Under the pieces are notes generated by a model, which worked only from the letters and a program-made list of their open reading frames with translations, was not told the origin of the DNA and did not search any database. A program made the translations under genes and the position numbers. Of a DNA stretch of 7,374 bases, positions 502-7,144 are shown one piece after another. The stretch comes from Calditrichia bacterium (GTDB taxonomy: Bacteria; Calditrichota; Calditrichia; RBG-13-44-9; J042), in the NCBI GenBank assembly GCA_030430345.1, contig JAUIFT010000111.1, positions 1-7,374 on the forward strand, read 5' to 3'. Each line of letters begins with the position of its first letter. Positions within the stretch are counted from its first letter, which is position 1.

Positions 502-551
502 TGTAGTCTCCTCTGGTAACTTTTATTTACTTTCCTGGTTAGACGCCCGGA

Positions 552-579
552 ATTTTATTTTCTTGCAAAGTAATTTCAA
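552..579 (-). promoter_or_regulatory. Candidate sigma-70-type promoter of the Spy-like gene
   Basis: On the minus strand TTGAAA (579-574) is followed after 16 bases by TAAAAT (557-552); each box differs by one base from the consensus. Transcription would start near 545, leaving a leader of about 44 bases that contains the AGAGGAG ribosome binding site. The region around it is AT-rich. This is a pattern match only; if the organism uses a diverged housekeeping sigma factor the boxes may mean little. Confidence 0.4.
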
Positions 580-690
580 AAATTTAAAATCGTTTTTCGT
601 GAAAATGGTAACAAAGTGATTGCCGGACTTGTGTATATTGCTTGCAGTTCAAGGATGAACGTTATTTTGAAGGGACTCAAAAATGCGGTA

Positions 691-765
691 GGGGCTGTAG
701 CTTAGCCGGGAAAGCGTCGCGCTGCTTGCAGAGCGAAGACAGAGGTTCGAATCCTTTCGGCTCCA
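691..765 (+). tRNA. tRNA-Ala-like gene, copy 1; non-standard anticodon arm, no encoded CCA
   Basis: Acceptor 691-697 pairs with 758-764, including G693-U762, the G3:U70 pair that marks tRNA-Ala for alanyl-tRNA synthetase. U8-A9 are at 698-699. The D arm is 700-703/712-715, with the GG of the D loop at 708-709. The T arm is 741-745/753-757 with loop TTCGAAT, and the discriminator is A765. The region between the D and T arms is two bases longer than in standard tRNA-Ala. Its best fold is 717-720/733-736 (TCGC/GCGA), a G-A mismatch (721/732), then CTG/CAG (722-724/729-731) capped by CTTG (725-728). If opened as a loop, U726 would act as U33 and TGC at 727-729 as the Ala anticodon, but the loop would be 10 bases with a mismatched closing pair. 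The 3' end reads ACTA, so CCA must be added enzymatically. It could be a true tRNA-Ala(UGC), a degenerate copy, or a charged tRNA-like RNA with another role. Confidence 0.75.
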
Positions 766-790
766 CTAAAAAATAATTTTGCAACAAGAC

Positions 791-868
791 GGGGCTGTAG
801 CTTAGTCGGGAAAGCATCGCGCTGCTTGCAGAGCGAAGACAGAGGTTCGAATCCTTTCGGCTCCACCA
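791..868 (+). tRNA. tRNA-Ala-like gene, copy 2; same arm, CCA encoded
   Basis: This copy starts exactly 100 bases after copy 1. The 75-base body differs at only two places: T806 for C706 in the D loop, and A816 for G716 at position 26. Both are unpaired sites, so every stem is preserved, including the G3:U70 acceptor pair and the long anticodon hairpin (817-836) with its CTTG cap. Unlike copy 1 it ends in ACCA, so the CCA tail is encoded (866-868). It is followed by a strong terminator, so the two copies are probably made as one precursor. As in copy 1, TGC at 827-829 is the anticodon an automatic tool would pick, but it lies inside a stem in the most stable fold. Confidence 0.77.
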
Positions 869-893: not shown

Positions 894-928
894 ACAGGTG
901 TTTGATGTTTTCAAACACCTGTTTTTTT
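894..928 (+). terminator. Strong intrinsic terminator after the tRNA-like pair
   Basis: ACAGGTGTTTGA (894-905) and TCAAACACCTGT (911-922) form a perfect 12-bp stem around a 5-base loop. A run of seven T follows at 922-928. The orientation suits plus-strand transcripts ending after the second tRNA-like gene. The same hairpin lies just past the stop codon of the convergent methyltransferase gene, but on that strand no solid T run follows, so termination there would be weaker. Confidence 0.85.
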
Positions 929-5370: not shown

Positions 5371-5997
5371 TTAACGGCCACTGGCAATCAGTCCGCTAAG
5401 CCGGATAGCGACTCGGCCGTTATTGGGCGGGGGTGTTGTGTTGTTCAGATCCGGTAAATCCGGTGAGGATTGCGGTTGAAACAGCTGGAGCTTCTCGCTT
5501 AACTCTCCGAGTATCTCCAGTGCGAGATTGGCATTCTCGAAACCTTTCCGCACAATCATCGGATCCTGCCTTTCACCAATTTTATCCAGGGCGTTCTGGT
5601 GAATTTCGGTTGACCAGCGTAGGGGGCTCTGGAAAATTTCCTGATTTCCGGTTTCAGCGCTGCCGTTATTCTGGTAAGATTCCAGGCGGGATGTTGTTGC
5701 GGTATGAATCTGCCAGAAAACCGTATTAACGATACGATTGACTTCCTGGGCAAGGTCCTCAAAGGGAAGCGCATTGATGAAAGCGAGCTGTTCCGGGGTC
5801 ATCAATTCAACTTCGCTGTGGATTTCGTGGGCTTTTTTTTTAAGCGCCTGAACTTCCCGTAACCAGATGCTGCGAATATTATTTCGTAAAAAAGTTTGAT
5901 CGTTATTTCTCAGGGCGATGAGCACTTCCAACTGTTGCTTCCATTGTAAAAAAGCAGCATTTGCAGAGTCGATGAGTGCATCTGCCTGATCATAGTC
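5371..5997 (-). CDS. C-terminal extension of the PP2C protein, separated by a frameshift
   Basis: This is the 208-residue continuation of the upstream phosphatase in the other frame, read from just after the A10 run. It has no convincing start of its own: the first possible start is a TTG at 5931 without a ribosome binding site, and the frame is open back to the A run. If one A is dropped, the phosphatase joins it seamlessly as ALKKK-DYDQADALIDSANAAF, giving one protein of 590 residues. The region is helical and rich in Gln, Glu and Leu, with TPR-like spacing around the junction, then a Pro/Asn-rich linker (PDLNNTTPPPNNGR) near the end. I do not recognise a named domain. It follows the single membrane segment of the phosphatase, so it should face the outside of the cytoplasmic membrane and may serve as a sensor or interaction part. 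The permease gene follows after 48 bases. Confidence 0.6.
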   Translation of the reverse strand, partial: DYDQADALIDSANAAFLQWKQQLEVLIALRNNDQTFLRNNIRSIWLREVQALKKKAHEIHSEVELMTPEQLAFINALPFEDLAQEVNRIVNTVFWQIHTATTSRLESYQNNGSAETGNQEIFQSPLRWSTEIHQNALDKIGERQDPMIVRKGFENANLALEILGELSEKLQLFQPQSSPDLPDLNNTTPPPNNGRVAIRLSGLIASGR

Positions 5998-7144
5998 TTT
6001 TTTTTTTCAAGGCGGCGTTTGATGCTTCCAAAACATTCAGAAATTGGTTAGCATCCGGAGAGGCCGGCATTTGTTGCAATGTTGGGGAATGGTTCTTTTT
6101 AAATGCGGTATATGCCTGTTCCAAAGAGGCGATCCGGCCTTCAATACGCCCGGAATCGCGGTCGCTTTGCCAGGAAGATAGCAGGAGGTAGGCGCAAAGT
6201 CCCAAAAATACAATGAGTGCAGGAAAGAGATACTTCGGGTTAAGATCGCGAATGGCGCGGGTGAGGCGATTGATTGACGACCTTAGCTTCTTGAGGTAAT
6301 CCCCGATAGAATGATAAAAAGATTCCGTGGCATCGTCATCCGGGACAGGATCGGAAAGGGAATCGTCATTAATGTGGGCGATGATTACGGTAATATTATC
6401 ATGACCGCCGCGGTCGTTGGCAAGGTTGATCAAATTATTGCAAGCTTTATCCAGCCCTTTCGAATGCAGGACGATTTCCAGCATCTCTTCTTTTTTGACC
6501 AGGCTGGAAAGTCCATCGCTGCAGAGCAGCAGATAATCATTTTGCTGTAAGGGAACCGGGGTAAAGGCGACGTTCATTTGTATCTGGTTTCCTAACGCCT
6601 GTAAAATAACATTGCGCCGCGGATGAGTTTCCGCTTCTTCCTCGGTTATTTTGCCGGCTTCCACCAATTGATTGACAAAAGACTGGTCTTTGGTTTTCTG
6701 GGAAATTTTTTCGTCGCGGATTAAGTAGGCCCGGCTATCGCCAATTTGCCCGAAGTAGGCGTAATTGTTGAGAATACCGGCAATTGTTGCCGTTGCCCCC
6801 ATGCCGCGCATTTCCGGGTGTTGCTGCGCATGTTCGCTGATGACCTTGTTGGCAGACTGCAAGGAAGCATCTATCTGCTCTATAAAATCTTCTTCGGAAG
6901 GAGGCTGGGGAAAGCGCATCACTTTCGAAACGGTTTTGACCGCCAGGCTGCTGGCGATTTCCCCGGCAGCAGCACCGCCCATGCCATCGGATACCATCAG
7001 GGTAATTCCGTGGGGATGCAATGGCGCTTCCAGGACCGCCGGCAGATAATCGATATCCTCGCTGGTTGTATCGACTACCAGGAAGCTGTCTTCGTTGCCC
7101 TTTCTTACTTTACCGGTGTCGGTGCGGGCAAATATTTTGATCAT
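5990..7144 (-). CDS. PP2C-family Ser/Thr protein phosphatase with membrane anchor
   Basis: As written this is 384 residues. Residues 1-258 form a bacterial PP2C (Stp/PrpC-type) catalytic domain with all metal-binding motifs: RTDTGKVRKGNEDSF at 7-21, VSDGMGG at 51-57, GMGATAT at 114-120, IGDSRAYL at 134-141, CSDGLSSL at 208-215 and RGGHDNITVI at 245-254. It should remove phosphate from phospho-Ser/Thr proteins in the cytoplasm, using Mn2+ or Mg2+. An acidic linker (259-275) and a basic helix precede one membrane segment at about 305-323; the rest would lie outside the membrane. The usual partner is a Hanks-type kinase, but none is in the window. I chose the ATG at 7144 because the family N-terminus starts there; a TTG at 7180 adds 12 unrelated residues. 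No clear Shine-Dalgarno sequence precedes the ATG. The last two residues (Arg-Leu) come from the frameshift at the A10 run. Confidence 0.93.
   Translation of the reverse strand: MIKIFARTDTGKVRKGNEDSFLVVDTTSEDIDYLPAVLEAPLHPHGITLMVSDGMGGAAAGEIASSLAVKTVSKVMRFPQPPSEEDFIEQIDASLQSANKVISEHAQQHPEMRGMGATATIAGILNNYAYFGQIGDSRAYLIRDEKISQKTKDQSFVNQLVEAGKITEEEAETHPRRNVILQALGNQIQMNVAFTPVPLQQNDYLLLCSDGLSSLVKKEEMLEIVLHSKGLDKACNNLINLANDRGGHDNITVIIAHINDDSLSDPVPDDDATESFYHSIGDYLKKLRSSINRLTRAIRDLNPKYLFPALIVFLGLCAYLLLSSWQSDRDSGRIEGRIASLEQAYTAFKKNHSPTLQQMPASPDANQFLNVLEASNAALKKKRL
5998..6007 (-). other. A10 homopolymer at the frameshift in the PP2C gene
   Basis: On the minus strand the codon TTG is followed by ten A and then GACTATGAT. 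As written, the frame reads Leu-Lys-Lys-Lys-Arg-Leu and stops at TGA (5992-5990). With nine A it reads Leu-Lys-Lys-Lys-Asp-Tyr-Asp and stays open for 208 more codons. A run of this length is prone to polymerase slippage in the cell, to contraction and expansion over generations, and to sequencing indels. The sequence alone cannot tell which applies. Confidence 0.8.

Follow-up and report, generated by a model that had tools for sequence, protein, structure and literature searches.

Two tandem tRNA-Ala-like RNAs whose anticodon arm appears to be rebuilt as a hairpin of 20 nt were analyzed in a DNA stretch of 7,374 nucleotides from a Calditrichia bacterium (contig JAUIFT010000111.1; this whole stretch is referred to as the window). 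A pair of this kind is found in two close species, and an alanine-type RNA having an arm of the same shape is found in another genome of the class. We regard it as the most likely reading, at about even odds, that the pair represents non-decoding alanine tRNA-like carriers, which are kept by selection and donate alanine outside the ribosome. In the proposed mechanism both RNAs would be charged with alanine by AlaRS and would read codons poorly, because a CUUG-capped hairpin of 20 nt, interrupted by one mismatch, takes the place of the anticodon loop. The T stem may bind EF-Tu weakly so that alanine stays out of translation, and the alanine would then be donated via an aminoacyl-tRNA transferase to a peptide, lipid or polysaccharide.

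The wider proposal is somewhat short of an even chance and is put forward tentatively. It says that the class Calditrichia has anticodon-free alanine tRNAs with an 8-pair tetraloop arm and an EF-Tu-detuned T stem, in which alanine is reserved for non-ribosomal use, and that these have at least two origins or are old with a freely covarying arm. The recurrent anticodon-free design is better supported than the first-pass annotation of the window could know, and its role is what we infer from it.

The two RNAs and their locus

Both RNAs are placed on the plus strand. Copy 1 covers positions 691 to 765 (75 nt) and has no encoded CCA, and copy 2 covers positions 791 to 868, of which 791-865 form the 75-nt body and 866-868 the encoded CCA. 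ARAGORN called both genes as tRNA with an amino acid that is not assignable (691-766 and 791-868), with the Rfam tRNA model, for which the gathering score is 29, they reached 53.1 and 55.0 bits, and syntenic copies were located at 6154-6228 and 6253-6330 of stretch L002 in a close relative, G001. The presence of two tRNA-Ala-like RNAs, proposed in the first-pass annotation from the letters alone, was thus borne out by a gene finder and by a covariance model.

The acceptor stem of both RNAs is GGGGCUG/CGGCUCC including G3.U70, with A73 as discriminator; the D stem is GCUU/AAGC, G15 is accompanied by C48, the T stem is AGAGG/CCUUU and the T loop is UUCGAAU, so that all parts which had been described as intact could be read in the sequence. 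The T arms (741 to 757 in copy 1 and 841 to 857 in copy 2, plus strand, bases read from the sequence) have the same pairs A49-U65, G50.U64 and A51-U63. The part between these arms had been described as two bases too long, and this agrees with an anticodon arm of 20 nt (normal 17) and a variable region of 4 nt (normal 5), which give three bases more and one base less. The arm lies at 717 to 736 in copy 1 and with identical sequence at 817 to 836 in copy 2 (plus strand), and reads UCGC-G-CUG-CUUG-CAG-A-GCGA. Neither RNA has the five-pair stem and seven-base loop with an alanine anticodon at 34-36 which belong to a decoding tRNA-Ala.

The spacer upstream of copy 1 (502 to 690, plus strand) is presumed to be the promoter region, and the consensus scan gave one weak plus-strand promoter site at 563-590 and none closer. 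Downstream of copy 2 a terminator-like hairpin is followed by a T run (894 to 922, plus strand); its stem is the same in G001, where the loop is two bases shorter. The neighbouring genes of the window encode an LTXXQ protein, an O-methyltransferase, an adenosine deaminase, a polysaccharide deacetylase, an AI-2E transporter and a PP2C phosphatase, and no obvious partner for alanine transfer was seen among them. The PP2C frame is broken at a T run (5990-6012), where G001 has a single frame of 602 aa (L209:14841-16649); this is probably a homopolymer frameshift, either real or an assembly error. An imperfect inverted repeat, CACGGATGGACACGAATTCACACGGAT ... ATCCGTATCAATCTGTGTAAATCAGTGG, was also observed at 1641-1733; it is mostly present at the same place in G001, and its microRNA match in Rfam is far below the cut-off.

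Folding of the arm

In the minimum free energy (MFE) fold of the window arm, UCGC/GCGA is followed by a mismatched G.A and then by CUG/CAG, which is capped by CUUG; the CUUG hairpin is present in the MFE folds of each of the four tested RNAs, two from the window and two from G001. In the free-RNA ensemble the pair probability of the arm is 0.85-0.97 in copy 2 and just 0.40-0.47 in copy 1 (G26), where the hairpin is not dominant. Opening the inner part of the arm takes about 4.2 kcal/mol in each window copy, compared with 8.6 kcal/mol in copy 1 of L002.

The energies of whole RNAs were no better than those of shuffled sequences (z 0.40 to -1.18 for the four RNAs), and for the arm alone 38 of 200 shuffles folded equally well in the window and none of 200 in copy 1 of L002. 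Since shuffled sequences fold about equally well, energy alone proves nothing and the case for the hairpin rests on comparison. The CUUG-capped hairpin of the first-pass annotation is accordingly retained on the MFE fold together with two comparative results described below, which are a compensatory change in G001 and an arm of the same shape and other sequence in a third genome.

The pair in a close relative

The relative G001 is the Calditrichia MAG Calditrichia bacterium IP29b_bin.38, and its stretch L002 holds the RNA pair in tandem, with the order and the neighbouring genes of the window. When the genome collection (described as covering 84,980 species) was scanned for the arm plus T loop, 17 stretches were obtained, and L002 alone among them is a tRNA. 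Together with 3 stretches from viral_contigs, these 17 from genome_contigs make 20 matches to the exact arm; one lies in a tRNA, that of L002, and the other 19 are chance matches. When 40 genomes of the class were searched with model R1, a score above 100 bits was obtained in G001 only and the next best was 67.6 bits, among the matches listed. The search of related genomes for the same 20-base arm, which the first-pass annotation had suggested, therefore led to a tRNA with that arm in G001.

In copy 1 of L002, U30-A43 replaces C30-G43 (75-nt alignment numbering), which is a compensatory change, and G31.U42 replaces G31.A42, giving eight unbroken pairs in the arm. Three of the four changes of this copy fall in the arm and raise its pairs from 7 to 8, a number reached by random triple changes in the arm in 2% of trials. 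A single event accounts for the compensatory change, and equal covariation counts were reached in 126 of 500 shuffles. Of the 24 pairs, 23 are standard in all four RNAs, and the remaining one is a G.A mismatch in three of them and G.U in the fourth. An alternative arm fold of four pairs with an 8-nt loop was also considered; it fits the window copies, is disrupted in copy 1 of L002, which keeps the hairpin, and was rejected.

Between the window and G001 the two RNAs differ at 5/150 bases against 30/267 in a control spacer (OMT-ADA) (binomial P 0.0005), and four-fold sites differ at 215/638. The spacers around the RNAs are conserved too, with 9/187 aligned bases changed upstream, 2/24 between the copies and 1/68 downstream, and so is another short spacer elsewhere (2/48). 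Thus the intergenic region as a whole is conserved and not the RNAs alone. The neutral divergence and broken pairs of degenerate genes were not found in the RNAs of the window and G001.

A second RNA of the same shape

Among the model R1 matches listed for the 40 class genomes, one is an alanine-type RNA of 76 bases in G009 (C1:3227972-3228047), which has no ARAGORN call. Its arm, CUUGAAUG-GAUU-CAUUCAAG, is also 20 nt long and forms eight perfect pairs with a 4-base loop, in which none of GGC, UGC and CGC is present, and the whole fold beats 193 of 200 shuffles. The arm sequence is unrelated to that of the window and the shape is alike (20 nt, eight pairs and a tetraloop); it resembles the ordinary Ala(GGC) arm of the class, CUUGAAUGGCAUUCAAG, with three bases added. 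The two kinds of RNA were compared part by part, as MAFFT misaligned the G009 arm. They share the D stem GCUU/AAGC, U13-A22 and A51-U63, and differ in that the G009 RNA has A15 with U48 instead of G15 with C48, and G49.U65 instead of A49-U65. The D-stem strand GCUU is common to both kinds, and a sample of 33 distinct ordinary Ala tRNAs contains it once (tally excluding loci below L021 and L211).

Gene finders label such genes as unknown, as for the window pair, or miss them, as in G009. In 40 further stretches from the match lists ARAGORN called at least one ordinary tRNA in each, and more RNAs like that of G009 may exist, the match lists having been sampled in part. The two kinds may go back to one ancestor or have two origins. 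Inspection by eye of genes flanking the G009 RNA showed no obvious partner. G009 (a contig of 4.06 Mb with at least one run of N) has no tmRNA above the cut-off among the matches listed, and the gene may be masked or absent. Another genome, G030, has an Ala-like RNA of 71 nt (C137:23906-23976) with a 15-nt anticodon arm, an A1/C72 mismatch and, by eye, a terminator-like hairpin downstream; no Ala(GGC) was seen in G030 among the matches listed.

Alanine identity and the T stem

The identity elements of bacterial tRNA-Ala given in the passages cited from PMC9976931 are A73, G2-C71, G3.U70, G4-C69 and G20, and the window RNAs carry all five of those tabulated there. The acceptor stem is the part that AlaRS reads, which makes charging of the window RNAs likely; as all the listed elements are present and none is in the anticodon, AlaRS should charge them with alanine. 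The absence of an open loop in the arm makes decoding unlikely.

The T stem was compared with that of 31 distinct ordinary Ala tRNAs from the class and of 116 tRNAs for other amino acids (tally excluding loci L001, L003-L020 and L211). A51-U63 is present in all four RNAs of the window and G001 and in the G009 RNA, and in none of the 31 Ala tRNAs, all of which have G-C or C-G at this position. A49-U65 alone is ordinary (27/31 Ala tRNAs), and it occurs together with A51-U63 in the four RNAs of the window and G001, the G009 RNA having A51-U63 only. Among the non-Ala tRNAs 33/116 have A-U at 51-63, and 3/116, all Val, have it at both positions. These pairs are thus unusual for Ala and not for tRNAs at large.

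In the passages cited from PMC8219837, pairs 49-65, 50-64 and 51-63 matter most for the interaction with EF-Tu and alanine itself destabilises it, and in those cited from PMC4052509 a tRNA-Gly of S. aureus with A49-U65 and A51-U63 is predicted to bind EF-Tu weakly. As far as these sources go, the T-stem pairs and the destabilising effect of alanine together suggest an alanine carrier which is kept off the ribosome. A49-U65 with A51-U63, taken as the sequence sign of non-proteinogenic tRNAs, was found in the RNAs of the window and G001, and by such signs the window RNAs may work like a non-proteinogenic tRNA.

Ordinary alanine tRNAs and the alternative readings

In six reading frames of the window 84 of 170 alanine codons are GCA or GCG, hence some tRNA reading these codons must exist. 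The 50 tRNA matches of G001 include neither Ala(UGC) nor Ala(CGC) nor Ile(GAU); 47 of them were typed by ARAGORN, two are the pair and one is untyped and Phe-like by eye. This Phe-like tRNA (C54:82446-82522) has an enlarged D loop and no ARAGORN call, and adjoins a YrlA (Y RNA-like) match below its cut-off. A tRNA cluster of the same genome (C6:25000-25700) has Ser, Tyr and two Leu genes, and two of these four score below 33 bits; a tRNA-Sec match under its threshold lies between the genes.

These counts bear on a reading that we consider unlikely, in which the RNAs are functional tRNA-Ala(UGC) whose loop is longer by three bases at its 5' side, CUG/CAG opens on the ribosome and U33-UGC-A37 decodes GCA/GCG. 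Apart from three added bases the window arm is similar to that of Ala(UGC), the loop of a normal Ala(UGC) is matched by its 3' half UUGCAG (U-UGC-A-G), and the fold with the 8-nt loop is just 3.1 kcal/mol worse than the hairpin in the window copies; the lack of another Ala(UGC) or Ala(CGC) in the G001 matches and the share of GCA/GCG codons point the same way. Against it, G001 also lacks a 16S match (pattern search; 5/40 genomes positive), and three relatives keep an ordinary Ala(UGC) beside the 23S rRNA: in G025 and G028 the space from 16S to 23S holds it together with Ile(GAU), and in G006 it stands with another tRNA immediately before 23S. Since 16S is absent too and the gene of the relatives lies beside 23S, a missing Ala(UGC) is expected in the G001 assembly, and we infer that this gene probably sits in an unassembled rRNA operon. 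The Rfam SSU rRNA search was positive in 1 of 10 genomes and negative in G001, and is insensitive (9/14 controls found); the pattern for ordinary Ala(UGC) gave 0/40 genomes and is uninformative, as it had CTYAG and the real genes have CTCAA. The loss of the 8-nt-loop fold in G001 copy 1, the G009 arm of the same shape with no alanine anticodon in its loop and the absence of A51-U63 from the ordinary Ala tRNAs sampled also speak against decoding. The 23S match of G006 (C137, 3478-6104 of L208) covers 2627 bases against 1219 model positions, and seems to have a large insertion.

Non-ribosomal donation by charged carriers calls for a transferase, and two families were searched. LPG_synthase_C has no match in G001 and is present in 13/40 class genomes. 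FemAB matches occur in 32/40, with one in G001, whose best fit is to the XrtA/PEP-CTERM FemAB model (151.5 bits, below the cut-off of 260) and which fits the alanyltransferase FemX model just weakly (35.2 bits, cut-off 500). No convincing partner was thus found in these families, and this result favours a regulatory RNA that uses its likeness to tRNA as a decoy or sponge, the target being AlaRS, RNase P, EF-Tu or a tRNA sensor; such an RNA may be charged or not and donates no alanine. The terminator-like hairpin of the locus, its strongly conserved flanks and the Bacillus cereus tRNA-Other, a tRNA-like RNA outside translation in the passages cited from PMC3399842, agree with such an RNA; the retention of all alanine identity elements argues that charging matters, and we hold the regulatory reading to be rather improbable.

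A split or replaced tmRNA was rejected, as G001 has its own tmRNA (C30:40537-40894, 157.5 bits, above the cut-off). In the window ARAGORN called no tmRNA, no mRNA-like tag region was found between tRNA halves, and a permuted-tmRNA match (27.7 bits, cut-off 47) is the junction of the two tandem tRNA-likes. For a mobile origin, no plasmid match was obtained; of three weak phage matches, the one read belongs to a 309-kb phage and is an Ala(CGC) gene of ordinary type.

Decay of duplicate tRNA-Ala copies in which a small insertion altered the arm (quasi-palindrome repair would suffice) is very unlikely, as it draws on the presence of two copies with one lacking CCA, on arms that look like Ala(UGC) and Ala(GGC) arms with insertions in the window and G009 and on the odd G030 gene, and is opposed by the low divergence of the RNAs against the control spacer, by arm changes that keep or add pairs and by the intact tertiary bases and terminator stem.

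Comparison with known systems

tRNAs outside translation are known, and in the cited passages the two examples nearest to the window RNAs both keep an anticodon. The S. aureus tRNA-Gly of the pentaglycine bridge is alike in having extra genes for one amino acid and A49-U65 with A51-U63 (PMC4052509, passages cited). It keeps its glycine anticodon, UCC, as given in the passages of PMC8007984, and changes G18 G19, whereas the window RNAs have a rebuilt anticodon loop and keep G18 G19. The B. cereus tRNA-Other is alike as a tRNA-like RNA without work in translation; in the cited part of PMC3399842 it has a Trp anticodon, poor lysine charging and a location at an island, whereas the window RNAs are of alanine type, have no open anticodon and form a tandem pair.

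An anticodon-free alanine tRNA design was not found in the open-licence literature searched. A free-standing, anticodon-free tRNA with full synthetase identity, if true, would be a clean genetic marker of non-ribosomal aminoacyl-tRNA use; genomes that have a so far undescribed pathway of alanine transfer could be recognised by it, and it would show that gene finders can hide a class of RNAs.

The tRNA-like domain of tmRNA has alanine identity without a decoding loop. Unlike it, the window RNAs lack an mRNA part and have a complete D stem, and G001 has a separate tmRNA. The interpretation in the first-pass annotation, of an RNA that could be charged with alanine and read codons poorly or not at all, much as part of tmRNA is charged, stands as to the hairpin arm, the alanine identity and the ordinary Ala(UGC) in three relatives, and its comparison with tmRNA is just a likeness. 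The ordinary Calditrichia tRNA-Ala(UGC) shares with the window RNAs the acceptor type, the T loop and the tertiary bases, and the string UUGCA is found in the arm of both; the window RNAs differ from it by the arm of 20 nt in place of 17, by A51-U63 and U13-A22 and by a location that is not beside rRNA.
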